Assembly (NCBI RefSeq): GCF_000003605.2
Contig: NW_003133375.1
Coordinates: 32,638-60,029, forward strand
Length of the DNA: 27,392 nt
Reading direction: 5' to 3'
From: Saccoglossus kowalevskii
Taxonomy: Eukaryota > Hemichordata > Enteropneusta > Harrimaniidae
Shown here: positions 2,625-20,829 of the stretch, one piece after another
Layout: every line of letters begins with the position of its first letter
Position numbering within the stretch: position 1 is the first letter of the stretch
The notes under the pieces: model-generated
What the model was told of the DNA's origin: nothing
Seen by the model: the letters and a program-made list of their open reading frames with translations, nothing else
Database searches by the model: none
Program-made: the position numbers and the translations under genes

Positions 2625-2633
2625 CTAGTTGCC
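2625..2633 (-). CDS. Exon 21: terminal coding exon, Gly-Asn-stop
   Basis: The strongest polypyrimidine acceptor in the window (CTCCATTTCTCC...CTCCTTCAG) is followed in phase 0 by GGC AAC TAG. The protein thus ends KDLKK-GN. Only nine coding bases support it, but the acceptor strength, the correct phase and the absence of any other IQ-like frame below 3.2 kb make it the best 3' end. The rest of the exon is 3' UTR running toward lower coordinates. Confidence 0.62.
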   Translation of the reverse strand, partial: GN

Positions 2634-5600
2634 CTGAAGGAGAAAATGGAGAAATGGAGACAAGAATAATGAAGAAGTGAGAGAATGAAATCAGTACAGA
2701 ATTATGCGATATTCAAATTTGATGATGCAGGATGATGTCATATCCTTTATGGTGATGTCATATCCTGTATGGTGATGTCATATCCTGTATGGCAATGTCA
2801 TATCCTGTTCTCTAAGCAGTGTGGGTATTTTTTTACAAAATAAGAGTAAAACTCATGACAGACTACATTATTTTCACTTTGCAATTTAAGTTTTTGATGT
2901 TTCACAAAAGGAAAATGCATCCTGGCATAATATATGGTTTCAATAATCAAAAATTGGCAAAAACATGTTACTATAAAAGCATTAAATATTATATTAATTA
3001 TGCTTCAAATATCAAAATTAAAATGAATGCCGTCACAGTATTCCTGTAAATAACAGGGCTACAGATTACAGTCACACTATTCTGAAAACATTTGAATTGT
3101 TGGTGGGTGTAACTGACATTATAGTAACAAAAAGTGACAAGCAGATATGAAAGTGTGCCCTCACAGGCAAGCATTACACATGCACCAGCCCAGTTTATCA
3201 CTAAGCAAATTTGTAAGTTTAGTTTTACCTTTTTCAAATCTTTCACTTCTCTTCTTGCTTTTAAACCTTTGAATCCAGCCTGAATTTTGACAGCAGCTTT
3301 TTCAACTTCAGGGTCATTAAGGTCAATATCAACTTCCTCTTCCTCAGCAGGTTTAGCGGCCTGTAATCAGAAAAAAAATACCCTCATTTACAAGCCTTAA
3401 CTTACCTATCAAGCCAAGTGGTACGATCCTATAGGCACCACATACAATGCACATTGGAATGTACCACATTCTGAAATGGGGGGGGGGGTGATTTAGCAGA
3501 TTTTTAGGAGCTGAATGAGATTTGCATTATTCTTTGACAATATGGCATCATTTTTAAAAATGAATATTTTGAATTTTTTAATTAATTATTATTGAAATTA
3601 TTATTCAAATGATCAGTTTTCAATATTTTTATCACAATTATTGAACTGAAACTGAAGTAAAGCTTTCCTCTTATGAGATCCATGTAAAGGAATCTCATCT
3701 ATCTGCTGCCCTCTAGTGGCACAACACTGTAAACTGTTAAATATCATAATTTGATACCCAAGGCGACACAGGAAGTATATTCCACAACACACCCTGTAAA
3801 ATGGCTATAAAAAACATCACAATTTATCCTTTAAATTTATTTAATTTCTGGAAATTTGATATTTTCATAAATACTACTAGATGTATTTCTTAGTATTCTT
3901 AGTAAAGTTTAAACATGTGCTGACTGTGGCATAGGAAATTATTTTCTGACACTACGAACAACATCCTCCCACAATTCCATGGTACACATTTCACCAGTAT
4001 GATTGGTCAATAATGCTGTTTATTTGTTTGAAATTTGAATGTGTTTAAACACGATCGTGACGACAACTTCCCTTTAACATTTTGGCTCTCTTAATCCACA
4101 GGACCTCAAATCTTCAGGCTTGATCTCTTTCAATAAAACTTCTTCAATTTGGATTTTTTGCTATTTTTTCAAATCGATCTTTTTTTTTATTTTTAACGGA
4201 TATAAATATTTTATAGAAAATAATAGATGCATTAAAAATATTTTTATAAATAGAAATTTTTATCAAACATTTGCAAATATTTACAAACTTTTTTTTTATT
4301 GATACTAAACAAACATAAGACGAAATAAGATTTCACGCAGACACGAATGTATTTCAATTTTGAATAGACGATTCTCAAGACGTCTTTGAAACTAAAGTTA
4401 GTTGCGTTCTGTTAGCAACACGCATTCAGGGTGCAGTGAGCAAAATTTTAAACGCTGTTATTTTGAGCCACACTTGTACTGTATTATGAAATGTTGGTTG
4501 GTTGCAGATGTTAAAAAAAATAACTATTAAAAAAGAAAAATTGGAATAATTATAATAATGTTAATTAATGCAAATCATCACACAAGTCCAAAATTTTACT
4601 ATTTTTTTTTATGAAAATGGATAACTGTAACTGAAGAATATGATTCATACAATTGTTATATTCATGATGGAGCTTCTTATTCAAAATAATAAAATAAATC
4701 AAATTAATAAAAAAAATTTAAAAAAGAAAATTTTTTTGAAAAAATAATAAATTGTTGGAAGTAGGATTAGTCCAGAACAAAAACGAGAGACATTAACATG
4801 TCATAACCAGAGTACAATTTTAAATATAGTTAATTTGAAAAAAAAAATTAATAAGGAGCTCCAATATATTGAAAATGAGCAAAATCACTGAATAATGAAA
4901 AAATGTAAATTATTTTAAATTATATCTATAAAAAATATATTCATGCTATAAGTTATTCATTAAAAAAAAAGTATTTTAAAAAATATCTATATTTTCATGC
5001 TCTATGTTATTTAGTAAAAAGGAATATTTAAAAAAACTGAATTCATGCTATGGGTTATATTGTAGGATGTGGTGTACTAAAATATTATTTAAAACAAAAA
5101 ATATATTAAATGAAAAATCATAATTTAATTATTATAAATATTCATGATATTATCATGCATAATGTTCTAAAAAATATAAGTGATGGTTTATAAGTAAGTA
5201 CGTGCATTTTTTATAATAATGATAATTTTGGAATATTACTGTTGGAGTGCAGGTGTGGTTGATGTCATTACGAGCAGGCAGGAGATCTACGATTGGGTTC
5301 TACTTTGGTGCTCATTAGCCTGCGAAATTAATTGTCCTACCTCAGGTTCGTTCTGCATATCCTTAACCTGTTTACGAGCTTTAAAACCTTTAAAACTAGC
5401 CTGTATTTTGACAGCCGCTTTCTCAACATCTGGATCGTCCAAGTCAATGTCAATTTCTTCCTCAGCCTCGACAGGTTTAACTTCATCAGCAGTTTTTTCG
5501 TCCTGCATATCTTTAACCTGTTTACGAGCCTTAAACCCCTTAAAACTAGCCTGTATTTTTACGGCCGCTTTTTCAACGTCAGGATCGTCTAAGTCTATAT

Positions 5601-8600
5601 CTATTTCCTCGTCGGCCTCAGCAGGTTTTGTTTCATCAGCAGTTTTTTCATCCTGCATATCCTTAACCTGTTTACGAGCCTTAAACCCCTTAAAACTAGC
5701 CTGTATTTTTACGGCCGCTTTTTCAACGTCAGGATCGTCTAGGTCAATATCTATTTCCTCGTCTGCCTCAGCAGGTTTTGCTTCATCAGCAGTTTTTTCA
5801 TCCTGCATATCCTTAACCTGTTTACGAGCTTTAAACCCCTTAAAACTAGCCTGTATTTTTACGGCCGCTTTTTCAACGTCAGGATCGTCTAAGTCAATAT
5901 CTACCTCTTCCTCCTTGGCTGGCTCTTCAGCTGATGGTTCTTTCATCTCTTTGACTTGTTGCCTTGCTTTTAGACCTTTAAAACCAGCTTGTATCTTCAC
6001 AGCCGCCTTCTCAACTTCGGGATCAGTGAGGTCAATATCAATTTCTTCTTCTTCTTTTTTCTCCTCAACCTGGAAATGACGAAAACAAAAATTCAAGGGA
6101 TCCATCCATTTGACATCTGCACCATTTGTTAATATTGAGCTGGTTTCCATGGAAACTACATATTATGTTTCACAGTAAGTATGTTACTCTACAACTTTTA
6201 GATATTCTTGGCAATTTTCTATAATGTCCTATAAGCAATTTAGTTTTAAGTTGACTTATGAATCGTCATTACTGTTTATTCTTGTTTCGTTACTGTTCAA
6301 GTTAACAACGACACCAACAACAACTATTGTCCCCATTGAATGCAACATAATCACCTTTTTTAGTGTTCAAATCTGAACTAAGTATAAACATTAGCAGTAA
6401 TTGTTGATTACTCAGTAATTGGAACACTTTTTGAAGACAATATTTTACAAGTCAAAGCCATCAGTAACATGCAACAGAAAATTTGTCGTTTCCCATGAAA
6501 AAAAAAAATAGTCTAAACATTACGAAATTTTACGTGAAATATTTCAATCAATTATGATAGTGATATTTGTCACCCCGTACACATGTTTCTGTACATCAAG
6601 ATCCGATTGTCAAACTTTGCGAAAAAAATACAAAAAAATTAAAATAGTGGTGAATCTGAGATGAGTTGGCAGAGATGACCATGCAAATTATATTTTTGTT
6701 TGTTTTGATAAACCTTTTGAATGCCAAAGTCAAACCTGAAATCTTCATATTTTTAAAAAAAATATTGACAAGACTTTACGCCAAGAATACATTGTCTTGA
6801 TTTGGTTCAAAATTAATACAGAAATTATGAAAAAAAAACAATTTTAAAATAATAATGTTGATAAAATTTTATATAAGTCATCACAACTTCTTGTCTCTCA
6901 CAAGATTAAAACAGTTTGAAGTAAACTGTCCAAATTCCCTCATGTCAGAAGATATTCTAGACAGAATTAAGACTATTAAATGATCTGCTATTACGATACA
7001 ATCTTGTTCTATGGTAACAGTGATTTGACTGACATGAAACATGCATTTAAAGGTGACAAACTTTTCAACTGAGGTGATCAGAACTCACCGTAATAGTATG
7101 TAGGTCAAGGCAGTTGACACTTTAACATATGAGGCCTGATAAAAAAAAATTCTGCTTCTCGTTTTCATCTGGGATGTTTGTTTTTTGTTTTTAAACGTTT
7201 TTAACGAGACCAAGATATTTGCTCTAATTCGAAGGTCAGTTTCTGGATCACCTTGTGGTGGTAAACTGCTATTACAACGACATTACAAATTAGTAATTAG
7301 TGTAAAATTACAATAATTAGTGTCAATTTTACACAAATTAGTGTAAAAATTACAATAATACTATCAAAACTTGCAGTAATTGTTTTTCAACCACTTCTCT
7401 CTAAAGCTATGCATTAAAACACCTAGTTTTCAAATTCAAATGACATAAACAGATTTTTTTTATCTGATTGTACCAACAATTCCCTGTGTCACAGGTTACA
7501 CCTGCTATAAGTACAACATATTAACATAGCAGGTTTCAAGAATACAAGACACAATGTCTGACTAAGAATTTTGCTAACTGCATCATATAGTTTTTTAACC
7601 CAATGTATTAAGTGGGAAATAATTCTGAAGTACTGTAGAATACGTTATTTTCGCTTGGAATTTATTTTTGCTATTTTCGCTGAAGGGATGATTCCGTGAA
7701 AATAAAATCCAGCGAATATACTTTTCTTCCTATATTTCACATTCAACTCATCAAAAATCAGTGAAAATAAATTCCATAAAGAACGCCCAAAAAGCCTTTT
7801 CAGCGAAAATTAATTCCAGCGAAAGTATTCCACAGTAAATTGAATATTTTGCTGAAAAAAAAAAATCTATCGAATAAAATGAGGAAAAGCTGATAGAGGC
7901 TACTCAAAATGTTTTCATGTGAACAAAACTCCAGAAAATTCCTGTGAAGAAATTTCACAAAAGAAAAAACAAATTTATTGAATAATTGTCATTTGACAAG
8001 TACCGGTGTTCAGTTTTGAATTATATTTGGGCATAATTTCAGACTGTACATCACTCAGGTCACAATTTCAATTTGATATACTGCACACAACAATCTATTT
8101 TCAAATCCCACATTTGAAAAATACCGAATGTAAACATGTCATACAAACTTGCAGAATCACAAATGTCATGCATTAAAGAGCGGCGGTTGTCGCGCCGCAC
8201 ATGTGCCACATCTGCGTTGATAAACGCTGATTTTCAATACAATGCGCTTGTCTAACATACACAAATTACCGGTGATGACTCCTTCATACCTTCCAATAAC
8301 CAAAGAAATTAGAAACCTTTAATTGTGTACTCATTGGTCTGTGCAGGATTCACATTCAAAGTCGCCATCTTTGTTCATACAAGTCCCATATCTCACGCAT
8401 ATGTGGCGCGACACCCACCGCCCTTCAAGTCTAATGTTATTCAAAAGCATTTTCCATTTTGACCTTATTCCTATGACTATGGCTCATTCATTTTCCAACC
8501 TAGTGTAAAATACTTTATTTTCGCTTGGAATTAATTTTCGCTGAAGGAATGATTCAGTGAAAATAAAATCCAGCAAATATACCTTTTTTCCTATATTTTA

Positions 8601-11600
8601 CATTCAACTTGTGAAAATAAAATCAGTGAAAATAAATTTCATACAAAACACCCAAAATGTCTTTTCAGTGAAAATTAATTCCAGCTAAAATAAAGTATTT
8701 TACAGTACTTGACAGCTCACCAGTAATTGACAAACAACAAATCTATGATTGTATTAAATAATCTTGGGATTGAATACGTCCTCCATGCAGTATCATCCCA
8801 CTTTACATTTCTTATGTACATGTACTTGCAGTCTCAACAGAATAAAAGCTGCTTTGTTTTCAGAATGAAACAGCACCACAGGTGTATTATACCCAGATTT
8901 TTTTTATCTAGAAGAACAGATTTCTTTCAAGTTGAATAAATACATATCCTGATACATGGTATGTCGGGAAATATTTTAAAAGCTATCAGGATGGGAGGGG
9001 GTTACTTTAATATCACCACATACAGTCGTCAAAACATAACATGACACCATACATTGCAGAAATGATCTTCCTAAAGACATGTAGGAAAAGTTCAAAATGC
9101 CATCAAACCTTAAAAATAAGTTTTCTATATTCACCTGTGTTTCGGCAGGTTTTTCCTCAACAGACTTGCCATCAGTTTCCTTAACACAAAAACGACAAAC
9201 ACATTTACAGAAACAAAACATTAAACGTACACATGACATTATTAAATACCATATTTACTCTATTAGAAGTACATGTATTACCTGAATACAATATAACATT
9301 ACACTTCTATATAGTTTGCTACACTGACAATGCTATCAAATTGAAATGAAATTAACACAGCTGCTTTTTAAAATGCACTTACAATAAACTAAATATGGTA
9401 CATGTGTTTACCTTTATACAATGTATCACAGAGAGGGCGCTCTTCAAATATTGTTGCTTGCTATATGAATTTACAATAGCTTCAATTTCACATTTATTAG
9501 TGTTGCTGTTTTACATAAAACATAAATTTTTATGACTGATTGATGACCCCTTAATGGTCAAACTTCCCGGTACTTTGCAGAATAGAATAAATTAAATGTT
9601 ATGTGGTGCAGCTATATCTCCAAATTACAAGGATACATGACCTTATAAGGTCATACGCAAGTTGCAGTAAATCTGCTATACAAGTATGGCGGCTTCAAAG
9701 TATAGGAATCAGTGGCCATCATGAATAAGTACCAGGATGTGTGACCTTTAATGGTTACGAATAAGTACCAGAATGTGGGACCTTTAGTGGTTATAATTAA
9801 GTACCAGGATGTGTGATCTTAAGTGATAATTATTAAGTATCAGGATGTGTGACCTTTAGTGGTTATGATTAAGTACCAGGATGTGTGACCTTTAGTGGTT
9901 ATAATTAAGTACCAGGATGTGTGACCTTAAGTGATAATTATTAAGTATCAGGATGTGTGACCTTTAGTGGTTATGATTAAGTACCAGGATGTGTGACCTT
10001 TAGTGGTTATGAGTAAGTACAGGAATGTGTGACCTTTAGGCGTTATAAATAAGTACCAGGATGTGTGACCTTTAGGCGTTATAAATAAGTACCAGGATGT
10101 GTGACCTTATAGTATCAGTGACAGTAGTACGGCCATTGGTAAATGAAATGTTGCTAAGGAAACAAAATACAATTAAGTACCTCTGTGTCAGCAGGTTTCT
10201 CATCTCCCTCTGCTTTTTCCTCAGTTTCCTTGACAACACAAACAAAATACATTACAATACACATAACAATCACTATCACAGATAACTATTATATTAAATG
10301 AAAAAAACAAATAACACAAATGATGCAATGTAGTCATGGTTGGTAAGCAGACTCATCTTACTATACAAATGAGATGAAACTCATCTATAACCACAATGCA
10401 TTGTCTGAAAAATACCCTACCTGGGTTTCTTCTGGTTTTATATCAGTTTGCTCCTCAGGCACCTTCACAAATACAAACAAAACAATTATAATTGAACATG
10501 TACAACAAATGCAAGTAATGCATGTAATATTGGGTAAATTAACAAAAATAAATCAACATTATATAGACAATGACAACCACACAGAAGTACTAAACTGGAT
10601 GGACTAATGGATGACAGACAGACTGATTAACACAACTGAAAGCCTGATTGACACTCACACACAGTAGTATAGACAACAAACAGACTTATTAACACACACA
10701 CACACAGACTGACAGACGACAGACAGACTGATTAACACACACAGACTGACAGACAACAGACAGACTGATTAACACATGCAGACTGACAGACAACAGACAA
10801 ACTGATTAACACACACAGACTGACAGACAACAGACAGACTGGTTAACACACATAGACTGACAGACAACAGACAGACAGACTGACTGATTAACACACGCAG
10901 ACTGACAGACAACAGACAAACTGATTAACACACAGAGACTGACAGACACAGACAGACTGATTAACACACATAGACTGACAAACAACAGATAGACTGATTA
11001 ACACACACAGACTGACTTACAACAGACCAACTGATTAACACACAGAAACTGACAGACAACAGACAGACTGATTAACACACACACACAGACTGACAGACAA
11101 CAGACCAACTGATTAACACACAGAGACTGACAGACAACAGACAGACTGATTAACACACAGAGATTGACAGACAACAGACAGACTGATTAACACACACAGA
11201 CTGACAGACAACAGTAAGACTGATTAACACACACAGACTGACAGACAACAGAAAAACTGATTAACACAAACAGACTGACAGACAACAGACAGACTGGTTA
11301 ACACACACGCAGACTGAGAGACAACAGACAGACAGACTGATTAACACATGCAGACTGACAGACAACATACCAACTGATTAACACACAGACTGACAGACAA
11401 CAGACACTGATTAACACACAGAGACTGACAGACAACAGACAGACTGATGAACACACAGAGACTGACAGACAACAGACACTGATTAACACACACAGATTGA
11501 CAGACAACAGACAGACTGATTAACACACTCAGACTGACAGACAACAGACAGACTGGTTAACACACACAGACTGACAGACAACAGACGGACTGATTAACAC

Positions 11601-14600
11601 ATGCAGACTGACAGACAACAGACAAACTGATTAACACACACAGACTGACAGACAACAGACAGACTGATCAACACACACAGATGATGGGCTCAGTCAGACA
11701 ATAACTCTCTTTAATTGTTGTTACCTGTGTTTCTGACGGCTTTTCCTCATCAGCCTTCTCTTCTGCTTCCTTATTCAATAACATAAACAAAATAATATAA
11801 ACATAAATGAAAGAAAATAAACAAGCAGAAATAAAAATGAACAAAAAATATAAAAAGCAATTAACTTTGAAGGGTCCTCGTCAAATAAAATGAAAATAAA
11901 AGTTACCTCTATTTCTGCTGGTTTATCGTCCCCTTCAGGTTTCTGTTCGTCCGCCTTTAACCACAAACAAATAAACAAACATTAACACGAAAACACAAAA
12001 CTTCCTCACAGAACAATAAAACTGTAATGTAAATTTAGGACAAACACTATTTATGACAAAACATACACATAACTAAAAAAAAAAACTTTGGACATACAAA
12101 CATTCATTTGCGCAAAATGCTTCAAATTGGAATATTTTTTAAAATGATAATACATTTCTGCCGAAACAGTATGTCACTTTTTTCTTTTATTTTTAAATTT
12201 TTCTTTATTTTTAATTTCAAATACAAACCTCTTTTTGTTCAGTTTGTTCCCCATCTGTTGCCGCTGGTTCATCAGTAGCCTGTGTTTTACAAGAAGACGC
12301 ACATGCATCAACGCTCAATCTTTATAATTTTAATTTAATTTTGATGTTTTTATTTCATGTACATTAATTAATTTACATGTGCTAATGTAAACACATTAAT
12401 TATTGCTGGTTTTTAATTTCACTATTTTCATTGATAAGTGGAATTCGCTAAAATAAAAACATGTGAACTTGAAAATAATAATAGAACTCATTGTTTCCTT
12501 GCCAAGTTCATAAATTTAAAATCTACAGAATTGCTCAAAATATCAAAATAGTGAAACTAAATAAATGATTTTACAGTACAAGTCTAATATGCTTCATGAA
12601 GAACAATGGTTGTCAATCATATACCTGACATATATATACGTGCACCCCTACATATATTGGTTTGTTCTATGACATAGTGTGCAGTCTTTATACCTGCACC
12701 CCTACAGATATTGGTTTGGTCTATAACAACATAGTGTGTAGTCTTGTACTACTGCTGATCATTCTGTGCCCTCTTAACATTGACACCCCTATAATAAAGT
12801 GCTTTATTCCATGACATATTGTGTCATATTATACCCTCACCCCTGCAAATAAAGTGGTTTGTTCTACATCACATGATGTAGTCCTTACACTTGCATATCT
12901 GCAATGAAGTGGTTTGTTTTATATTACCGAGTTAAGTTGTAACACCTGAACCATATTTTTAACTTTAAAGTGTGGTGGTCTTTGTGCTATGCATGCTCCA
13001 GGTATGGGTCCCATACAAACATTTATCACAAACCTATGTGCACACAGCTGCAGAATTAACTTGAGTGATCAGAGTATACAAGAAATGAGATAGTACAAGG
13101 GTTTAGATAGATAAATTTTGATCTGAGACATGGATGCTATAACCGCCATAAGCACTGTGTGCATTTCGCTCAGATCAAAATCTGCATGTGTAACTTGACG
13201 TCCATTTTAATAGTCCATGTAATAGGAAGTGGAAAAATCAATAAGATTATCTATCAACAAAATTCTACCAAATAAACATCATCCTTTAATTTTCCAATTG
13301 AAAGTTTACATCCAATCCTAAAGAAAAAAAATCTGTCTGTAAGAAGGTGAAAAGAGAAAGTCCGTATGCTAATAAATTAATGCTATAGAGAAAAAAGAGT
13401 TACTGTGCTTCTGAAACTAAATAAAAAAAATTTAATCTATGTGATTTTCACAAGAAAAGATTGCAATTATAAGATACACTTGAATTCAAACCTCTGCTTG
13501 TTGTTCTTGGTCCTCCTCAACCTGTTGCTCTATTTCCATGACAACCTTTAAGTTAGTAAATACACAATGATGAAAAGAATGAGATGGATATATAACTTAC
13601 TACAAGATGAACGAAATAATGAACAGAAAAATGAAGAAACAAACCTCTTGTTCTCCTTCCTGGGGTTCGTTCTCAGTTTGTTCTATCTCTGCGGTGACCT
13701 TTGGTTAGTAAAACACAGAATGGATGGATGAATGGATGGACGGACTGACAATGGACAGTTTGATACGCAGACAGACAGTATGGATATGTGAATGCTATTG
13801 AAATGCACACAAGTGTTACAACATATGACGAGTCAGAATGACAAAGTTAGTCAGATATTCACAAAGGAACACAAAACAAACCTTCTCCTGCTCATTTTCT
13901 GCTTGTTCCTCAATCTGTTCTGTTTCCTCGGTAACCTTTGTTAGTGAAACACAGAAAACACATAACAGGTATGGATGGAATTTTACAAGTACATGGTATG
14001 AGATGAAAGAATGAAGTAGATTAATTACACTATTAAAGGCTGAGAGAAAAAAATATCTCTATTTCTCGTTCCCGCACACATCATTTTGAACTATGTGCCT
14101 CAAAAGTTTGTTTTCCTTCTAAAGCATTCCAAAATGTGCTTGTACTCGCACTTATCTCAAATTTCCCCCATTATAGCTTAGTATTCAAATACAAAAACAA
14201 AATCGCCTTGCCGCCTCATTTTAAAATTTTTATTTGAAACACAAATGACCACAGGAGTTTTACAGAATGGAGATATAAATACAAACCATTTCTTCTTGTT
14301 GTTCATCAACGGGACTCTGTTCCTCAGATTGCTCAATTTGCTCTGCTACCTTTGGTTAGTAAAACAGACAAACTCATAGTAATAGTACAGACACACAGGA
14401 ATGAAGGACAGTTAAACCATTTGAGCACCATCATTTTTCCCATCAACATTTTGGTGCATATTTTTTACATATTTTAATGTAGTTTGCTATTCTAGATTGA
14501 TCGAACAGATGTAATCTGTTATTGTCTACAATTCCAGATCAAAAATTGTGAAAAATTATGTTATTTCGTAAAATGTGATAGAAGTTAGCATTCAAATGAT

Positions 14601-17600
14601 TTACGAATGGTGAGGAAAGATGTCACAAACACATAAATGTTACTTGACCATCTATGGCCTAAACTACAGAAATGTAATGGTGACGATAACAAACTACAAA
14701 CCTGTTCTTGTTCATAGTTTTCTTCAGCAGCTCCCTCAGCCTCAGCATCCTTTACAAGTTAATTAGAGAATCGAGGTGATATGGACAGTTAGTAGATGAA
14801 CAATATGTATGAAAACTAGCAGCCCTTTCACTGATACTACCAAGTGTAACCTTCCACAGCAGTTCTGTATGCAAATTAGCAACCTTTTCACTGCTACTAC
14901 CACTTATAACCTTCCGCAACAGAGTTTCCTATGCAAATCAACAACCCTTTCACTGCAACTTCCAACTATAACCCTCCACGACACAGTTCAGTATGTAAAT
15001 TATAAACCTGTTCACTTTTAGTACCAAATGAAACCTTCCACAACAAAGATGAACAATGTGAACCAACATGTATGCAAATTAGCCACCCATTCACTGCCAT
15101 TGTAAACTGTAACCTTCCACAACATTATTTGACCTAGTTTGCCTAAAACAGGACTTACAAAATAGTTAAATTAATCAAAAGTTGTAACTGTCTGAACCAT
15201 GTTCCTGAATAAATTATGAAAATATCACAAAAAATTTGAAAACACACAAATTAATATGGAAGTTCAATAGAGGTGTAAATCAACACTCATTGGATCGTGT
15301 ATCTTTTAGCAGGTGGTTTCATGGTACTACTGTAAAATACTTTATTTTAGCTGGAACTAATTTTCACTGAAAAAGTCTTTTAGCTGTTTTAGAAGTTTAT
15401 TTTTGTAAAATATATAAAAATAAAACATTTTTGCTGAATACCATTTTCACTAATACATCCTTTCAGCAAAAATAGTGAAAAAAAATTCCAAGCGAAAAAT
15501 AAAGCATTCTACATTATGCTAATTAATTATGTAATTTTAACCAATGAAATCCAACCTCAGTCGTTGCTTTTTTATCTTCTTCCTCCTTGTCTTGTGATTC
15601 ATCCTGTGCCTTGATTGGTCAAATAAAAGATATTTATTTAACTAACTTAACCAATGAAATATCAATTTATATAATTCTGAAACATTCTGGCAATTCTGTT
15701 TGATCTATGTCCTATATTATAAGTACCGATAGTTTCAGAGAGTTATGAGATGAAGGTATGTAAATGATGTGATAAGCAATGAATATCTCATGTGAATTGA
15801 AGAAATCAACTGAACTGAGAGATGACTAAAATATCGACAAGACAAACATATTCGTTTCTAGAAATACTAACTGCTAGCGTTCATTTCAGGCAAGTTAATT
15901 TCCTTGCTTATTCGCAAAGCATGTATAACGTGTGTTTTCCGCTTTCGATTACAGCGTTTTTCTCGCTCATTTCTATTCACGCTATCACACCTCTCCAAGC
16001 GTTCACTGTATTCAATGATGCCATTGGTTGAAATACATTTGATTGCCGAGCACATAAGATTTTCATTGCATATCACTCTACAAAGACATCTAAGTTATTG
16101 AATCATAAATTGACAGGTGCTAGTCAGTAGCACACCACTAACAAAAATATCTACTCAGATCAAGGTAATAAGCAAATAACAGCAGACACCTAGGAACAAG
16201 GTAAACAGTATTATTACACTATGAAAGATTGCAGTTACAGTGGTGCCTAGTGGAAACATACACATAATGCAATGGGGTTAATTACATAAATGCAATAAAT
16301 AGAATGACATTTTTAGTGCTAGAAATATTAGCAATTTTATATGATTTGCAAGAGGTCAATTTCATAAGCTTGGCATGATTTTCCAAAATTTGGAAATTTC
16401 ATAAAGTTTCGTCTATTGTGAAATAAAAGCAAATACATTAAGACTTTATAATATGCAACTAAAGAACACTAGCCTAAGGGTGCTTCTAGAGCCATGTGAC
16501 ATACTTTATATTGCACAACAAAAGATCAAAAGCCTAGGGGTGCTTTTAATGTCATGTGATCTCATAATAGATGATACACACTTGCAGAACACTACCCTAA
16601 GTGTGCTTATATCATGTGACCCCATAATTATAATATATACTACTAAAGGACAATGGCCTAGGGATGCTTGCACTAGTCACAAGACCTCCAAAAACTATAA
16701 GGTTACAGTGACAGAGCCTTACTCCTGTCCTTTCTCATGACATGCAGCATATTTTGACTTAGATAAGCAGTTCTGGCTTCAACTGATCAATCTTGCAAAT
16801 CCATGTTAAATGCTAAGACTAAAATGGCTAAGACTGCTAAAATGTCAAGAACCACTGAAGTAAATAATCTGGAATTTCGCATCCTATGAATCAAATATCT
16901 GAATTTCAAAAAGCAAGAATTAATTTTCTAATATTTTCACTAACCCATTTCACAAGATTGTCTACTGCCTGGGTTGTCTGAAAACAAAAATAAAATCAAG
17001 ATTCTTATTTTTCTTTTTTTAGATAATTTTGTAATTTTGTATATTAATGCAAATCTAATCAGAATTGGGAGTAGACGACCACCATTAAGATATAAAATAA
17101 GATAATATTTTTTTTTTATGATTCAGTGTATAGTAAAGATGACTTTATTTACAATGGAATTTTATTTTGGTGAAGTTGAGTCAGTAAGATTCAGTGAACA
17201 CACTTTTTATATGTGCAAGTCTTACAGAACCTATAAGCAATATTTTATTTTTGTTGCTGACGTTATGTTTTGTGGTAATAACGGCGATATCATGTTGATT
17301 TCTTAAAAAAGTTATCTGACTTTTAGTAATTTCTAGTATCAATGTTTGTCAACTTCCAAAACATTGCCACGTTCATGAAAATATCTGTTCTATTTTTTGT
17401 CTGGGAACATGACCATTGTTTGGAAGTATATTACTTCATAGCTTCGACAAATGATGATGTGATTTTGGTATATGCTGACTGGGTCCCCTTCTTGATATGA
17501 GCGTGGTGTCATTAATGCCTACACAAACATCAAAGTGTAACTCTGAATTAAGTACATGGCTATGGGTACAGTGTGTGTGTGTGTGTGTGTGTGCTTGAAA

Positions 17601-20600
17601 AACGTTTGAACTTAGATGAAAAAGGCCATTATTACTTTATGTCTATATGAAAAGAATTTCTTTGTGTCATCATTAGTACAGAGTAGCCATAAACATGTAA
17701 CAAGTTGTAACAGATATGAAAGCAATGCCAATGGAATTACTGCACTGACTACTGTGGAATACTTTATTTTTGCTGGAATTAATTTTCGCTGAAAAGACTT
17801 TTCGGGCGTTTTGTATAGAATTTATTTTCAATGATTTTTGATGAGTTTAATGTGAAATATAGAAAAAAAAGTATATTCGTTGGATTTTATTTTCACTGAA
17901 CCACTCCTTCAGCGAAAATGGCGAAAATAAATTCCAAGCGAAAATAAAGTATTCTACAGTATTTGTTGTTTCACCCAATATTTTGTGCGAGATGTTTTAT
18001 TTTCTATGCTATGATATTTACAAATGAGTCACACATTTGTTTGATTGATGGCTTATTGTATGTATGTTGTATCACTCTGATAAGTATGATGATTTAATGA
18101 CTTATGTCCCCCAATTATCATCATACAATCCATTAGTAGCAATTGGGGCAAACCATTACACGAGAGGTATGTGTAGGTTAATTGGGAGGGGAGCTTACTT
18201 GTTCATCCTCTGTTTTTTCTTCTGCGACTACCTCTGGCTTTTCCTTAAAACAATACACAAACATAAAAATAACTCAAAGCTTCTATGAAGCACTCCTGTT
18301 TTATGCACTGCAAAACAGGAGCTAATTATAAATAATTGTAAATGGAAACAAACGAACACAAAACATAAAAGACCCAACAAAATGTGGATGTGCTCCTACC
18401 TCATCTTTCTTTTCCTCAGTCTCTTCTGATTGTTCAGTTTTCTCAGACTTATTAACACAACACAGACAACACAATACAAGCATGCAAGATAAAATAAAAT
18501 ACAAAAAAAAATAAAAAAAATGAAACCAAACCATCCCAGAATCTGCACATATGTAATCATCCATGGTCCACAATTTCTATTAGCATTTTAACCAATAGTT
18601 AAGTACATCCTCCGAGAAATTTTACAAATAATACAAAAAATTCCGTGCACAGGCAGTGTACAAAAACAGTAGTTTTGTTGTGACTCCCAGCAAAAAAAAA
18701 ACCTGTGTGAGAAAGGTAAAATGCACATACATGTGTAATCATATCTCTTGTCTCCCAATGTTGCCAGGACGACAAGATTATGAGAGTTTAATTGGCTAGA
18801 TGATAAGAAAATTACAGATTTTAATGAATATGTCACACCTTCTAGATACAAATATTGAATATACCTGTGGTAGTATATGGCCATAAGCCCCATATATGTA
18901 AGAAACACCATATTCAGTGGTAGCCGAAATAGTTTTGAAACATTTGTTGAAAACATTATTGTTCCAGGCACTAAGATTGAATGCCACATTGTATCTCTTT
19001 TTTGACTATTTTTAAATACTGATGGTACATGTGCATTGTGCCACAGGAACAATATTCCGTTTTGGGGATTACGTGACATTTCAATTTCAATAAATCAGTC
19101 AGTAACATCGGAATACTAAAATTCAACCCAGTGAATGCAACTAACAAGGATAATTAACATATTATATGCAAATTGGCCACAACACTATTGTTATTTTCTT
19201 AGGATAACACAGTTATTTAAAGGGCGGCAGTCATCACGCCACGTCCTGTTCGATATGGGACTCATAGCGATGTATACAGCGCGTGTAAAATACATTGTTT
19301 ATTCACATGAAATTCGAACACGCGCTGCGCGGCGACCACCGCGCTTTAATATTGTGCCACAAGAAAGTGTCAGCGCCCTTTTTAGTTGAGTCATCCAGAA
19401 TTACAGACTTACCGAGACTTGCTCTTCTCGTTTTTGTTTGACTTCTTTCCTCGCTTTTAGACCTTTAAAACCAGCTTGAATTTTTACTGCTGCTTTTTCG
19501 ACTTCAGGATCTTCAAGATCAATGTCTATCTCTTCTTCTTCTTGTTTGTTTGTTTGTGCTTTCCTTTGGTTATAATAACATGGATATTATCATGATTAGT
19601 CACAAGGTTTCATTACGAGATGTGAGGAGAAAACTAGCGGCTGATTTTTACAGCACATTCTGTGGTTATGCATCCAGGGACATGTACACGTTCATCTGTG
19701 CAGTATGGTATGGTTTGTCAAGTCAATTTGTCAACGCCAACGCCAATTATAATATCACTTAAAAATTTATATGTGTAGATTTATGTATAGAGATTTTTAG
19801 CATTAGCAGTGAACTTTTGCACACCAGCTCAAAGCCCACATTACTATTTTCACCAAAATAAAAAATTTACACTGAATAATTCATCAAATGTGTGTCACAC
19901 ATTAAAGTTCAATACATTCCATTTGTATAATGTATGTAAACTGTGAGTTTGTCCTACATTATCAGGCCCAATGCACAGTGAAAATGAATCTGCTTTGCAG
20001 ATCAAAAAACACATAAATAAACATGTATACACCATTTGCATAAACAAATACATAATTTGCATACACAAAAAAAAACAATTTGCATACATAAATACACAAC
20101 TTTTGTAAACAAATACATAATTTGCAAAAATGAATACATAATTTGCATACACAAAAACATTTAGCATACATAAATACACACAAATTTGCATACCGAAATT
20201 TTCATACTTAATATACAATTTGCATACATAAACAATTTGCATACATAAGTACACAATTTGCATATATAAATACACAATTTGCATACATAAATGCACAATT
20301 TGCATACATAAATGCACAATTTGCATACATAAATACATGTACACAATTTGCATATATAAATATAAAATTTGTATCAGCCAATCAGTCAATCAGTCACTCA
20401 CTTCATTTCTGCTACTTCTTGCCGAGCTAGGTGACCTTTGACACCGGCTTGAATTTTAACTGCAGCTTCTTGTTGTTGTGGATCGTTGACGTCGCCAATG
20501 TTGTCCTAGAAACAGACAAACCAAACAAAACAAAACTGTAAACATAAATAAAACATAAGCAAACCATGCATTACACTTGAGGGAGAAAAGTTAAAAAAAA

Positions 20601-20741
20601 AGAGAAAAGTGAATGATGGATGTATGACAGGGGAAAATAAAAGTGAAAAATAAAGTATGTGATGACATCAGGGAAAGAGTCATGCATGGTTTCTCATCTC
20701 ACATGTTTAGAACGTCGTAGCCGTGAGCTGCCCTTTCCCAT
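2625..20741 (-). CDS. Multi-IQ neurogranin/neuromodulin-like calmodulin-binding protein, 21-exon gene (whole model)
   Basis: The CDS joins 21 exons: 20741-20703, 20505-20402, 19563-19413, 18447-18400, 18243-18199, 16977-16945, 15609-15556, 14749-14702, 14349-14287, 13935-13882, 13698-13645, 13545-13492, 12279-12229, 11954-11907, 11769-11725, 10462-10421, 10228-10181, 9179-9135, 6069-5341, 3360-3229 and 2633-2625. All introns are GT-AG. All are phase 0 except intron 2, which is phase 2. The maximal product is 631 aa. Eight IQ motifs (IQxxxKGxxxR, Lys replacing the usual Arg at position 6) start near residues 31, 76, 368, 414, 464, 514, 564 and 611. Residues 99-342 form an acidic linker encoded by microexons. 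The acidic D-I-D-L-D-D-P stretch before each IQ and the IQASF core are the hallmarks of neurogranin and GAP-43, which hold apo-calmodulin until Ca2+ or PKC phosphorylation releases it. Drosophila igloo is a known multi-IQ relative. No transmembrane segment or catalytic domain is seen. Exact orthology is inferred, and exon inclusion in mRNA is untested. Confidence 0.82.
2729..2808. repeat. 22-bp tandem repeat in the last intron
   Basis: About four copies of a unit containing GATGTCATATCCTGTATGGT, just upstream (on the gene strand) of the terminal exon acceptor. Confidence 0.85.
3229..3360 (-). CDS. Exon 20: eighth IQ module
   Basis: It runs from acceptor GATTACAG|GCC to donor AAAAAG|GTAAAA, with 44 codons, phase 0-0. 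It encodes AAKPAEEEEVDIDLNDPEVE and then the IQ core IQAGFKGLKARREVKDLKK (IQ at residues 611-621). It keeps Gly at the IQAS/G position and is a self-contained module like exon 3. It therefore probably represents the ancestral single-exon unit from which exon 19 expanded. Confidence 0.88.
3361..5340 (-). other. Intron 19, mostly AT-rich
   Basis: Nearly 2 kb between exons 19 and 20. It contains an 11-G run at 3478-3488 and an extremely A/T-rich block from about 4500 to 5215. Within that block, at about 4930-5060, a degenerate repeat of roughly 60 bp recurs, built on ATTCATGCTAT and GTTAT. No further exon is convincing. Confidence 0.6.
5287..5340 (-). other. Alternative C-terminus by exon 19 read-through
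   Basis: If the exon 19 donor is skipped, translation adds VGQLISQANEHQSRTQS and stops. This would give a 602-aa product lacking the eighth IQ motif. The donor GAG|GTAGGA is reasonable and exon 20 joins in frame, so I treat splicing as the main form and this as a possible alternative end. No convincing AATAAA lies just downstream. Confidence 0.3.
5341..6069 (-). CDS. Exon 19: 729-nt exon with five tandem IQ modules
   Basis: It runs from acceptor TTTCCAG|GTTGAGGAG to donor CCTGAG|GTAGGA and holds exactly 243 codons, phase 0-0. It opens VEEKKEEEEIDIDLTDPEVE and carries IQ cores at product residues 368, 414, 464, 514 and 564. The first core is IQAGFKGLKAR; the next four are IQASFKGFKAR. Each of those four is led by DIDLDDPDVEKAAVK, and spacers such as DEKTADEAKPAEAD separate cores 2-5. 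The last four modules repeat with an exact 150-bp DNA period, and three are almost identical in nucleotide sequence, which points to recent duplication or gene conversion. The Ser in IQASF (residues 417, 467, 517, 567) matches the PKC-site position in neurogranin and GAP-43. Without splicing at 5340 the frame continues 17 codons to a stop at 5287. Confidence 0.92.
7286..7366. repeat. Imperfect palindromic repeat of AATTAGTGTAAAATTACAAT
   Basis: The motif TTAGTGTAAAATTACAATAA occurs twice and is interleaved with a partial inverted copy (ATTTTACAC). It lies in intron 18 with no coding content. Confidence 0.6.
7631..7837. mobile_element. MITE family 1, copy A
   Basis: A 207-bp palindromic element bounded by TACTGTAGAATAC and its inverted counterpart GTATTCCACAGTA. 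The subterminal motif TTTTCGCTTGGAATT is also inverted. TA at each end fits a TA target-site duplication like that of Tc1/mariner-derived MITEs. There is no coding capacity. It lies in intron 18. Confidence 0.8.
8173..8428. mobile_element. MITE family 2 (GCGG-type termini), copy 1
   Basis: A roughly 250-bp element with GC-rich inverted ends: GCGGCGGTTGTCGCGCC on the left, and the reverse complement of GGCGCGACACCCACCGCCC on the right. It is flanked by TTAA and TTCAA. It stands out from the AT-rich host. A second copy lies at 19217-19349. Confidence 0.72.
8501..8706. mobile_element. MITE family 1, copy B
   Basis: 206 bp, with ends TAGTGTAAAATACTTTATTT and AATAAAGTATTTTACAGTA and internal TTTTCGCTTGGAATTAATTT. 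It has the same orientation as copy A. It sits 72 bp from the GCGG-type element. Confidence 0.8.
9135..9179 (-). CDS. Exon 18: last 45-nt microexon of the linker
   Basis: Encodes ETDGKSVEEKPAETQ, phase 0-0, with acceptor TTTGTGTTAAG|GAA and donor CAG|GTGAAT. It ends the microexon array and splices across a 3.07-kb intron, the longest of the gene, to the large IQ exon. Confidence 0.83.
9724..10110. repeat. 36-bp minisatellite in intron 17
   Basis: About eleven copies of a 35-36 bp unit containing AAGTACCAGGATGTGTGACC followed by TTTAGTGGTTATGAT. Variants with GGCGTTATAA cluster at the high-coordinate end. A lone inverted copy occurs at 26449-26484. Confidence 0.9.
10181..10228 (-). CDS. Exon 17: 48-nt microexon of the KPAE subfamily
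   Basis: Encodes ETEEKAEGDEKPADTE, phase 0-0, with acceptor TTTGTTTGTGTTGTCAAG|GAA and donor GAG|GTACTT. It aligns with exon 15 (E-x-E-E-K-A-x-x-x-E-K-P). A 36-bp minisatellite begins about 70 nt downstream of its donor. Confidence 0.83.
10421..10462 (-). CDS. Exon 16: 42-nt microexon
   Basis: Encodes VPEEQTDIKPEETQ, phase 0-0, with acceptor TTTGTTTGTATTTGTGAAG|GTG and donor CAG|GTAGGG. It ends KPEETQ, a variant of the KPAETQ ending of its neighbours. It is the first exon after the satellite intron. Confidence 0.8.
10611..11684. repeat. 1.07-kb satellite of ~37-39 bp units in intron 15
   Basis: About 28 copies of a unit containing CAGACTGACAGACAACAGAC, then AGACTGATTAACACACA. On the gene strand each unit is pyrimidine-rich (GTTGTCTGTCAGTCTGTGTG, then TTAATCAG) and resembles a splice acceptor. 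The open frames read from it (Ser/Val/Cys/Leu repeats on the minus strand) are artefacts of the repeat. Confidence 0.93.
11725..11769 (-). CDS. Exon 15: 45-nt microexon of the KPAE subfamily
   Basis: Encodes EAEEKADEEKPSETQ, phase 0-0, with acceptor TTATTGAATAAG|GAA and donor CAG|GTAACA. It is nearly the same length as exon 18 and ends like it (EKPSETQ versus EKPAETQ). The satellite array at 10611-11684 begins about 40 nt downstream of its donor. Confidence 0.83.
11907..11954 (-). CDS. Exon 14: 48-nt microexon of the KPAE subfamily
   Basis: Encodes ADEQKPEGDDKPAEIE, phase 0-0, with acceptor TTGTTTGTGGTTAAAG|GCG and donor GAG|GTAACT. The closing D/E-KP-A-E-x-E/Q motif recurs in exons 15, 17 and 18, and also at the start of exon 20 and between modules of exon 19. 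This links the linker microexons to the IQ-module spacers. Confidence 0.82.
12229..12279 (-). CDS. Exon 13: 51-nt acidic microexon
   Basis: Encodes ATDEPAATDGEQTEQKE, phase 0-0. The acceptor is AAAACACAG|GCT, preceded upstream by TCTTCTTG, and the donor is GAG|GTTTGT. It is the last of the consecutive exons whose donors carry T at +3. Confidence 0.8.
12640..12925. repeat. Diverged ~62-bp tandem repeat in intron 12
   Basis: Four to five degenerate copies share ACCCCTRCA, TGGTTTGTTCTA and ACATAGTGT-like blocks. No coding content. Confidence 0.65.
13492..13545 (-). CDS. Exon 12: 54-nt microexon of the EQ-rich subfamily
   Basis: Encodes VVMEIEQQVEEDQEQQAE, phase 0-0, with acceptor TACTAACTTAAAG|GTT and donor GAG|GTTTGA. 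It aligns position by position with exon 11 at the start (V-x-x-E-I-E-Q). Confidence 0.8.
13645..13698 (-). CDS. Exon 11: 54-nt microexon of the EQ-rich subfamily
   Basis: Encodes VTAEIEQTENEPQEGEQE, phase 0-0, with acceptor TTACTAACCAAAG|GTC and donor GAG|GTTTGT. It has the same length as exons 10 and 12 and is separated from exon 10 by a 183-nt intron and from exon 12 by a 99-nt intron. Confidence 0.82.
13882..13935 (-). CDS. Exon 10: 54-nt microexon of the EQ-rich subfamily
   Basis: Encodes VTEETEQIEEQAENEQEK, phase 0-0, with acceptor CACTAACAAAG|GTT and donor AAG|GTTTGT. It shares the V-T/A-x-E-x-E-Q opening and the upstream flank with exons 9 and 11. Confidence 0.82.
14287..14349 (-). 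CDS. Exon 9: 63-nt microexon of the EQ-rich subfamily
   Basis: Its 21 codons begin VAEQIEQSEEQ, contain SPVDEQQ and end EEM; phase 0-0. The acceptor TTACTAACCAAAG|GTA and donor ATG|GTTTGT are shared with exons 10-12, including the adjacent intron bases. This indicates that exon and flanks duplicated together. It is the longest microexon of the array. Confidence 0.8.
14702..14749 (-). CDS. Exon 8: 48-nt acidic microexon
   Basis: Encodes DAEAEGAAEENYEQEQ, phase 0-0. The acceptor is TTAACTTGTAAAG|GAT and the donor CAG|GTTTGT. It has the only tyrosine in the linker. Confidence 0.78.
14809..15125. repeat. Diverged ~63-bp tandem repeat in intron 7
   Basis: About five units contain TATGCAAATTAGCAACC, TTTCACTGCTACTACCA and TAACCTTCCACAACA. 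The 70-codon open frame on the plus strand here is simply this repeat read through. Confidence 0.8.
15328..15516. mobile_element. MITE family 1, copy C
   Basis: 189 bp, bounded by TACTGTAAAATACTTTATTT and AATAAAGCATTCTACATTA. It is more diverged than the other copies. It lies about 40 nt downstream of the exon 7 donor. Confidence 0.75.
15556..15609 (-). CDS. Exon 7: 54-nt acidic microexon
   Basis: Encodes AQDESQDKEEEDKKATTE, phase 0-0. The acceptor is ACCAATCAAG|GCA and the donor GAG|GTTGGA, with T at +3. It belongs to the run of exons 6-13 with GTT donors. The charge is mixed, with a KK pair inside the acidic run. Confidence 0.78.
16463..16680. repeat. ~60-bp tandem repeat in intron 6
   Basis: Four degenerate units share GCCTAGGGGTGCTT and ATGTCATGTGA blocks. 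It creates a 95-codon plus-strand open frame that I do not regard as a gene. Confidence 0.75.
16945..16977 (-). CDS. Exon 6: 33-nt microexon with atypical content (tentative)
   Basis: Encodes TTQAVDNLVKW, phase 0-0. The acceptor is strong, with a T-rich tract ending GTTTTCAG, and the donor is TGG|GTTAGT. Unlike every other linker exon it is neither Glu-rich nor disordered-looking, and it ends in hydrophobic and aromatic residues, so it could be a short linear motif. It is the least secure exon because nothing but splice sites and phase supports it. Confidence 0.5.
17571..17593. repeat. GT microsatellite
   Basis: A run of about 11 GT dinucleotides in intron 5. Confidence 0.95.
17750..17961. 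mobile_element. MITE family 1, copy D
   Basis: 212 bp, the longest copy and opposite in orientation to copies A and B. Ends: TACTGTGGAATACTTTATTT and AATAAAGTATTCTACAGTA. It contains CAGCGAAAATGGCGAAAATA and CCAAGCGAAAATAAAG near the right end, mirrored by TTTTCGCTGAAAAG on the left. Confidence 0.82.
18199..18243 (-). CDS. Exon 5: 45-nt acidic microexon
   Basis: Encodes EKPEVVAEEKTEDEQ, phase 0-0. The acceptor is TTGTTTTAAG|GAA and the donor CAA|GTAAGC is close to consensus. It is separated from exon 4 by an intron of only 156 nt. The EKP element recurs in exons 14-18. Confidence 0.82.
18400..18447 (-). CDS. Exon 4: 48-nt acidic microexon
   Basis: Encodes SEKTEQSEETEEKKDE, phase 0-0. The acceptor is TGTGTTAATAAG|TCTGAG, preceded by a TG-rich tract. 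The donor is GAG|GTAGGA. It is the first cassette of the 15-microexon linker. Its acceptor region strongly resembles the sense strand of the satellite at 10.6-11.7 kb. Confidence 0.8.
18588..19079 (-). other. 163-codon open frame inside intron 3, unassigned
   Basis: The longest open frame outside the exons, on the same strand as the host gene. It begins MSRNPQNGILFLWHNAHV and contains a hydrophobic stretch LFRLPLNMVFLTYMGLMAIY, then a Cys/aromatic-rich tail. I recognise no family. Composition and context suggest chance or a decayed mobile element rather than a real gene. Confidence 0.15.
19217..19349. mobile_element. MITE family 2 (GCGG-type termini), copy 2
   Basis: A 133-bp element flanked by TTAA on both sides. 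The ends AAAGGGCGGCAGTCATCACG and CGGCGACCACCGCGCTTTAA are inverted relatives. It is shorter than copy 1 (8173-8428). It lies 63 bp from exon 3 and is the most GC-rich DNA in that intron. Confidence 0.7.
19413..19563 (-). CDS. Exon 3: second IQ module with acidic lead-in
   Basis: It begins with one G that completes the Lys codon split with exon 2, then 50 codons, ending TCG|GTAAGT, a consensus donor. The acceptor is AACCAAAG|G. Order: KAQTNKQEEEE, then IDIDLEDPEVEK, then the IQ core AAVKIQAGFKGLKARKEVK (IQ at residues 76-86), then a charged tail QKREEQVS. The module is laid out like those of exons 19 and 20, showing a common origin. Gly replaces the Ser that PKC phosphorylates in neurogranin-type IQASF cores. 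Confidence 0.88.
20023..20372. repeat. ~20-22 bp tandem repeat in intron 2
   Basis: About 16 copies of AATTTGCATACATAAATACAC and variants. It starts only about 30 nt beyond the exon 2 donor on the gene strand. A long minus-strand open frame across it is a by-product of the repeat. Confidence 0.9.
20402..20505 (-). CDS. Exon 2: first IQ motif
   Basis: It runs from acceptor TTTCTAG|GAC to donor ATGAA|GTGAGT and holds 34 codons plus 2 nt, the only non-zero phase in the gene. It encodes DNIGDVNDPQQQ followed by EAAVKIQAGVKGHLAR, a complete IQ motif at residues 31-41 of the product. It is more diverged than the other modules (GVKGHLAR instead of GFKGLKAR) and lacks the IDIDL acidic run. If the donor is not used, the frame reads ATG AAG TGA, so the stop codon overlaps the donor and a 48-aa single-IQ protein would result. 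Confidence 0.85.
20703..20741 (-). CDS. Exon 1: start codon and basic, potentially myristoylated head
   Basis: Encodes MGKGSSRLRRSKH (13 codons) and then splices at CAT|GTGAGA. The start sits in a strong Kozak context (A at -3, G at +4; ACCATGG). The next in-frame codons after the donor are AGA TGA, so the frame cannot continue without splicing. Phase 0 joins cleanly to exon 2. Gly2 and Ser6 fit the N-myristoylation pattern M-G-x-x-x-S. The Arg/Lys cluster at residues 7-12 could strengthen membrane binding. GAP-43 and neurogranin instead use N-terminal cysteines for membrane association. The start was chosen because it is the only ATG that feeds in frame into the IQ exons. Confidence 0.78.
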
Positions 20742-20829
20742 GGTATATACAGATGAAGAATTCTGGAACGGAAAGATGAGGACTGGATTAAGAAGAGGAC
20801 AGACATTTATTCAGGTTTCAGGGCTCCAA

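Follow-up and report, generated by a model that had tools for sequence, protein, structure and literature searches.

The closest described counterpart of the gene considered here is SPA17 (Sp17), a protein with an extended docking/dimerisation (D/D) domain, an acidic spacer and an IQ motif. The D/D domains of SPA17 assemble into homodimers and tetramers, and their affinity for AKAP18 is 82 nM when paired with ROPN1L and 9.6 uM alone (PMC8339350); the same source assigns such D/D proteins to motile cilia and the flagella of sperm, and likens them to the RSP7-RSP11 pair of the radial spoke. In this study, a gene best read as an enlarged SPA17 orthologue was analysed in the hemichordate Saccoglossus kowalevskii (genome of 572 Mb). 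It shares with SPA17 a D/D domain of 75 residues aligned without a gap, an acidic spacer and the IQ motif. All its parts are on the minus strand; the D/D exons lie upstream of, and the other exons within, a window of 27,392 nucleotides (C2531:32638-60029), whose flanks as retrieved are N in part. The acidic spacer is unlike that of SPA17, since it is composed of 15 phase 0-0 mini-exons and located after the second IQ motif. The D/D domain, IQ motif and acidic spacer were already known for SPA17; as far as the open-licence literature searched shows, the eight IQ motifs and the skippable spacer of about 15 exons are new.

Individual parts of the gene resemble other systems. Its IQ modules are like PCP4/PEP-19 and neurogranin in having acidic sequence, a proline and the IQ motif in the same register, but those are small free-standing proteins with one IQ motif and without a D/D domain. 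The acidic sequence beside the IQ motif of PEP-19, with its hydrophobic anchors and proline, speeds both the binding and the release of Ca2+ at the C-domain of calmodulin up to 40-fold, and the acidic stretch is required for this tuning (PMC5122967). Alternatively spliced exons that encode acidic segments and shift Ca2+ sensitivity are found in troponin T (TNNT3 exons 4-8; PMC8559874, PMC2447309). The N-terminal variable region of troponin T shares such per-exon acidic segments with our gene, a likeness that we regard as an analogy and not as evidence for this gene; it differs in being an unrelated protein with fewer exons, whose splicing was shown by experiment. The poly-E exons of the titin PEVK region are Glu-rich and disordered, are described by their glutamate density per exon, and affect stiffness by their charge (PMC9100103), but titin is an unrelated muscle spring with a known splicing regulator, RBM20.

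Schistosome micro-exon genes have 10-20 short exons, mostly multiples of three, with long introns between them (PMC10526429). They differ in having exons of mostly 15 nt, and encode secreted parasite proteins with a signal peptide. The N-terminus of our gene matches the SPA17 D/D domain. To our knowledge, micro-exon genes carry no IQ motif or D/D domain. We know of no described multi-IQ SPA17 or mini-exon array of this kind, and none was found in the open-licence literature, judged mostly by titles. The excerpts of PMC10266980 do not mention SPA17, and those of PMC11043121 hold no invertebrate content.

Anatomy of the acidic mini-exon array

The array comprises 15 exon-like segments (m1 to m15, positions 18447 to 9135). 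It is preceded by the IQ exons at 20505-20402 and 19563-19413 and followed by a 729-nt exon (6069-5341) that carries five IQ modules. The segments measure 33-63 nt, are bordered by AG and GT, contain no stop and are all phase 0-0 with lengths divisible by three, giving a total of 244 codons. A previous interpretation made from the letters of the window, hereafter the sequence-only reading, had described them as 15 in-frame microexons that encode a tunable, disordered-looking linker between two IQ groups, acidic except for exon 6. Their coordinates, borders, lengths and phases stand, and 14 of the 15 are indeed acidic; the other, m3 (TTQAVDNLVKW), is not. The term microexon is used loosely here, with 10 of the 15 segments within the limit of 51 nt (PMC6600660) and five of 54-63 nt.

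Among the 244 residues are 80 Glu, 19 Asp and 20 Lys, with a net charge of -79. A mean hydropathy of 0.29 and a net charge of 0.32 put the array far into the disordered side of the established charge-hydropathy boundary. The acidic linker proposed earlier is thereby borne out in composition as disorder-prone, and its exons are separately skippable.

The 14 acidic segments are real and beyond chance. Under a fixed rule (33-63 nt, AG/GT borders, pyrimidine share of at least 0.5, D+E of at least 0.30, no stop), 14 non-overlapping segments were found on the minus strand of the array region and none on its plus strand, compared with a mean of 0.06 (maximum 1) in 200 first-order shuffles and of 0.22 (again never more than 1) for 18 control strands of 9.4 kb from the same genome. 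When the thresholds were varied over 12 settings, 12-14 segments came from the array, none from its plus strand (one in the laxest) and at most six from any control strand, also in the laxest. No other segment of the region equals the splice sites of m3 (16977-16945, exon 6 of the sequence-only reading), but 19 of 100 shuffles yield a comparable segment. No further phase 0-0 exons of 18-198 nt with an acceptor of at least 3.5 and a donor of at least 3.0 were found in the four stretches scanned, parts of which read N.

SPA17 domain, IQ modules and gene model

Joined in phase, the two D/D exons match the structure of SPA17 7my4 (E 1.2e-30, 71 residues, gapless across the exon junction), followed by 9fqr (1.4e-28) and 8j07 (2.7e-28). 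The next families are radial spoke protein 7 (E 8e-7) and PKA RII (4e-5), and the Pfam RIIa family is recognised at 8e-13. The locus is the better of two SPA17 matches listed in the genome, the other being on C563. The locus shows the extended D/D domain (about residues 1-75) and, given a shared transcript, an acidic stretch with an IQ motif behind it in one polypeptide. The exons follow one another on the minus strand as D/D exons (at least 14.6 kb upstream), a basic 60-nt exon, two IQ exons, the array, the five-IQ exon and an eighth IQ exon, with a single open frame from the D/D exons through to the last IQ and phases matching 1/1 and 0/0. We infer from strand, order, phase and homology that D/D and IQ exons share one transcript. 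The D/D homology and the open frame with matching phases through the IQ exons suggest an SPA17 orthologue, so that expression would be looked for first in sperm and motile cilia rather than in nerve. With all exons included the protein would have 713 residues, and 469 without the array, its last two residues depending on an unproven last exon. For that exon two acceptors score at least 6, at 3043 and 2633, and 2633 was adopted in the model without proof.

The 60-nt exon (20703..20762) was equated with exon 1 of the sequence-only reading by counting back from exon 6 of that reading. Its ATG reads MGKGSSRLRRSKH, but the exon is probably internal and not a start exon, because the reading frame stays open from the ATG back to a good acceptor 21 nt ahead of it, giving NSSSVYTMGKGSSRLRRSKH. 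An N-myristoylated start at the ATG of MGKGSS was considered and is doubtful, as the exon has its own acceptor (score 5.0).

A total of eight IQ modules were identified, two before the array and six after it. The PEP-19 register hydrophobic-D-I-D-L-x-D-P-[ED] is present in seven of them, with hydrophobics at F30/I32/M34, acids at D31/D33/E38 and P37 ahead of the IQ; the first module (20505-20402) retains the proline and misses most of the acids. The 729-nt exon alone has its best solved-structure match in PCP4/PEP-19 (E 1.4e-5), with weaker ones in Sp17 (E 0.011 and 0.08). The likeness to small neuronal calmodulin regulators in the sequence-only reading is therefore retained for the IQ module and dropped for the gene as a whole. 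Neurogranin and GAP-43 have no other domain, and their start segment stands directly before the IQ part. Provided that the exons are joined as modelled, this gene has neither feature, and its proposed membership of that family was rejected in view of the SPA17 D/D exons, which lie upstream in compatible phase on the same strand, along with the acceptor before the ATG exon. Within the 729-nt exon, a 150-bp tandem repeat (5353-5903; 3.7 copies, 92% matches) holds one IQ module per unit and is a recent expansion of predicted calmodulin-binding sites inside one exon.

Table. Features of the gene and of its surroundings; positions are those of the window unless a contig is given.
Feature	Position	Strand	Basis
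D/D exon, MSVPFSNTKLRVPRGFQNLLEGLAREVLRTQPDNIYSFSAKYFDDLLRIRE	L034, C2531:86150-85997	-	first coding exon, outside window
D/D exon, EGIDPAEFGAKLQDRYYNNKAFQ	L005, C2531:68074-68004	-	second coding exon, outside window
60-nt phase 0-0 exon NSSSVYTMGKGSSRLRRSKH, contains ATG	20703..20762	-	acceptor score 5.0, donor 3.2; frame links upstream SPA17 D/D exons to first IQ exon
First IQ motif exon, 104 nt, exits in phase 2	20402..20505	-	Pfam IQ; 54% identity to SPA17 residues 113-138
Second IQ motif exon, 151 nt, exits in phase 0	19413..19563	-	Pfam IQ; splice borders
Acidic exon m1 SEKTEQSEETEEKKDE	18400..18447	-	splice borders, fixed rule
Acidic exon m2 EKPEVVAEEKTEDEQ	18199..18243	-	splice borders, fixed rule
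Non-acidic candidate exon m3 TTQAVDNLVKW, unproven	16945..16977	-	splice borders; chance test
Acidic exon m4 AQDESQDKEEEDKKATTE	15556..15609	-	splice borders, fixed rule
Acidic exon m5 DAEAEGAAEENYEQEQ	14702..14749	-	splice borders, fixed rule
Acidic exon m6 VAEQIEQSEEQSPVDEQQEEM, ACTAAC near acceptor	14287..14349	-	splice borders, fixed rule, motif count
Acidic exon m7 VTEETEQIEEQAENEQEK, ACTAAC near acceptor	13882..13935	-	splice borders, fixed rule, motif count
Acidic exon m8 VTAEIEQTENEPQEGEQE, ACTAAC near acceptor	13645..13698	-	splice borders, fixed rule, motif count
Acidic exon m9 VVMEIEQQVEEDQEQQAE, ACTAAC near acceptor	13492..13545	-	splice borders, fixed rule, motif count
Acidic exon m10 ATDEPAATDGEQTEQKE	12229..12279	-	splice borders, fixed rule
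Acidic exon m11 ADEQKPEGDDKPAEIE, duplicate of m14	11907..11954	-	splice borders, fixed rule, pair comparison
Acidic exon m12 EAEEKADEEKPSETQ, duplicate of m15	11725..11769	-	splice borders, fixed rule, pair comparison
Acidic exon m13 VPEEQTDIKPEETQ	10421..10462	-	splice borders, fixed rule
Acidic exon m14 ETEEKAEGDEKPADTE, duplicate of m11	10181..10228	-	splice borders, fixed rule, pair comparison
Acidic exon m15 ETDGKSVEEKPAETQ, duplicate of m12	9135..9179	-	splice borders, fixed rule, pair comparison
729-nt exon, five PEP-19-like IQ modules, 150-bp tandem repeat	5341..6069	-	Pfam IQ E 7.3e-31, five stretches; PCP4 alignment
Eighth IQ module exon	3229..3360	-	Pfam IQ; splice borders
Possible coding part of last exon (GN and stop codon), weak support	2625..2633	-	acceptor score 8.5, phase 0
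Further D/D (RIIa) exon, MEPPAGFERLLENLTVEIISQEPTNVYKFAAEYLDRLIEIR	L003 5429-5542, C2531 ~18 kb	-	Pfam E 4.9e-6, downstream of gene

The further D/D exon downstream of the gene probably belongs to a tandem paralogue and lies outside the four places given by the genome-wide RIIa search. A query of 881 bases returned one full match to the locus, the rest being dispersed repeat, and thus no second copy among the 40 scored of 182 candidates. The same IQ module is found in a cluster of exons on C3771 (136-407 kb; L021, L022, L024, L025, L026, L032), next to sequence that by appearance is Ig-domain-like and to repeats rich in Glu, Pro, Val and Lys; this is perhaps a titin-like giant muscle gene invaded by the IQ module. 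A second multi-IQ gene lies at C4558:306356-313024 (L028, L029), with eight one-IQ exons matched, phase 1-1 in those internal exons that were read and weak Ig-like matches in the next stretches. Scanning its minus strand, N in part, for phase 0-0 exons gave no acidic mini-exon array. A titin-like origin of our gene was rejected, as two Ig-like queries had no match in the fetched stretches of C2531, also N in part.

Splice sites and exon duplication

The splice sites of the array were compared with those of 17 introns of clathrin heavy chain from the same genome (18 neighbouring match pairs, one of which gave none). The clathrin acceptors comprise 12 CAG, four TAG and one AAG, and all 17 donors are GTR. 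AAG acceptors are found in 13 of the 15 array segments (p 5e-6 against 1 of 17), and T at donor position +3 (GTT) in 8 of 15 against 0 of 17 (p 6e-4). Median scores from a general matrix are lower in the array than in clathrin by about four bits, both for donors (1.5 and 6.2, p 6e-4) and for acceptors (-0.2 and 3.8, p 1e-4). The acceptors of the flanking exons are strong at 20505 (4.9), 6069 (6.6) and 3360 (6.3), and weak at 19563 (-2.5). Weak sites on short exons fit the pattern of regulated cassette exons. From the tunable linker of the sequence-only reading, the capacity for in-frame skipping of each exon, up to 244 residues in all, is kept; combinatorial use is plausible, the evidence for it being the weak splice sites.

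GU-rich words upstream number 52 in the 15 array introns compared with 14 in the 17 clathrin introns, and ACTAAY occurs in 5 of 15 compared with 0 of 17. The stricter TGTTTG/TTTGTT gives no contrast (8 of 15 and 8 of 17), and the excess of GU-rich words and ACTAAY is suggestive only as a splicing signal. Around the 15 segments UGCAUG, UGC and YGCY are near expectation, and YCAY, UUUUU and UCUU somewhat higher. In the neighbouring m6-m9, ACTAAC stands a few bases ahead of the acceptor AG (14355-14360 and the matching places for m7, m8 and m9). It resembles a branch point or a QKI-type site, and appears too near the AG for the usual branch point.

Two pairs of segments, m11/m14 and m12/m15, are duplicates by both DNA and peptide, in a pattern as of one copied two-exon block. 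In addition, m6 and m7 each match m8 and m9 around the acceptor over 47-49 bases at 79-82%. Judged by these matches, the array has grown at least in part by exon duplication. Over the 31 codons of the two duplicate pairs, differences at codon positions 1/2/3 number 6/5/18 (18 of 29 in third position, p 0.0014), in pairs picked by peptide similarity, a selection that itself favours third-position bias. Minisatellites of 36 bp and 37 bp occupy array introns at 9721-10113 and 10698-11681 and are possibly tied to the duplication of exons. The intron that separates m6 from m7 contains a dispersed repeat (about 14020-14250) with at least 39 further genome matches at 82-90%, among 40 scored of 182 candidates.

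Apart from this locus, we noted that the mitochondrial contig C4830 (L057) has COI on the strand opposite ND1, ND2 and COX2, as these genes were provisionally named. In its COI, 6 of 10 ATA codons align with Ile and none with Met of sea urchin COI. AAA stands at presumed conserved Lys sites, and AGA at apparent Ser sites. Such a code is likely to be that of a hemichordate.

Proposed mechanism and competing explanations

At a probability of roughly 0.58, we read the gene as an SPA17 orthologue with eight IQ motifs and an acidic tether whose length and charge are set by alternative splicing, its product being a holder of calmodulin in the axoneme. Exon anatomy, frame, charge, duplication, weak sites and the D/D and IQ homologies are observed; the alternative splicing, localisation and function of the product are what we infer. 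The D/D domain would form a homodimer or pair with a ropporin-like protein, and would bind an AKAP-type helix in a cilium or sperm flagellum, as is known for vertebrate SPA17. The two IQ modules near this anchor and the six beyond the linker would hold calmodulin, and the PEP-19-type acidic sequence beside seven of the eight IQs would probably tune Ca2+ exchange and keep several calmodulins in a fast-exchange state. Such fast-exchange holding at an axonemal docking site is proposed because seven of the eight modules keep the PEP-19 register. The array would set distance and charge between the two anchor-near modules and the six distal ones, and in-frame skipping of its weak-site exons would set the length and charge of the tether. 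This proposal is made because the exons are duplicated, skippable in frame and weak-sited. Its extension to a combinatorial splicing ruler, by which axonemes of cilia or sperm would draw on up to 2^15 tethers of 0-244 residues and charges of 0 to -79 that could tune the Ca2+ control of beating by cell type, is possible but rather unlikely.

Several points weigh against the spliced SPA17 tether. SPA17 as known has one IQ motif and 151 residues, compared with eight and about 713 here, and for the RIIa family overall C3224 and C4583 outscore the locus, neither of them among the SPA17 matches listed. The join to the D/D exons is confined to strand, order, phase and homology, because of their upstream distance of at least 14.6 kb and the partly N flanks. 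As an exon, m3 is unproven and not distinguishable from chance. The splice scores come from a general matrix and a baseline of one gene, the flanking exon 19563-19413 also has an AAG acceptor, and the site statistics hold fewer than 15 independent cases, because duplicated exons inherit their splice sites. Selection maintaining the frame of the array is thinly supported, by third-position bias, the lack of stops and the uniform phase; in the four other peptide-similar pairs the differences at positions 1/2/3 show a third-position excess in two (4/4/9 and 6/3/11) and hardly any in two (8/7/9 and 6/6/7). Neither inclusion nor skipping is seen directly in an analysis of DNA alone.

One rival is a constitutively spliced array in the same SPA17 gene, which would form a fixed long acidic spacer without tuning. 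The third-position bias of the duplicates requires inclusion only, skipping was never seen, and purine-rich exon sequence can serve as a splicing enhancer. Acceptors and donors much weaker than those of the clathrin introns, the shortness of the exons and the phase 0-0 of all 15 argue against it, and we consider it possible but unlikely. Decay is improbable by comparison: the array would be a set of exons that expands and degenerates, with most of them out of use, as the weak splice sites and the minisatellites and dispersed repeat in the introns would allow. The duplicates also bear on it. Compared without gaps, their exons (0.76 and 0.62) are more alike than their flanks (0.37-0.47), but in the two best pairs a gapped comparison makes the 40 upstream bases (0.70 and 0.78) as similar as the exons (0.76 and 0.69), the median for all 105 upstream pairs being 0.62. 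The copies thus took in the acceptor region, and exon-over-intron conservation was discarded as proof of selection. Against decay, no segment of the 15 has a stop, third-position bias is seen in the two clearest duplicate pairs, and acidity is retained in 14 of the 15.

The gene might also be two, an upstream SPA17 and a separate multi-IQ gene with the N-terminus MGKGSSRLRRSK, serving as a membrane calmodulin store with a possible myristoylated basic anchor. In its favour are the long introns and N stretches between the D/D exons and the window, the PCP4-like character of seven of the eight IQ modules, and MGxxxS followed by basic residues, an N-myristoylation pattern. A good acceptor 21 nt ahead of the ATG with the frame open up to it, the matching phases, and the need of SPA17 for an IQ exon, for which the first in the window is 54% identical to the SPA17 IQ stretch, make such a split improbable, if slightly less so than decay. 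A neuronal calmodulin store of neurogranin/GAP-43 type has in its favour the alignment of the IQ modules with PCP4/PEP-19, but with SPA17 D/D exons on the same strand and in frame it is the least probable of these explanations and hardly to be expected.

If the reading as an SPA17 orthologue with a spliced acidic tether is true, calmodulin capacity and tether length at the Sp17 docking site can evolve freely. The gene would then offer naturally occurring acidic tethers of graded length on a single anchor, in which the effects of charge and distance on ciliary Ca2+ signalling may be followed, and would provide a parallel to the acidic alternative exons of troponin T in an unrelated motile organelle.

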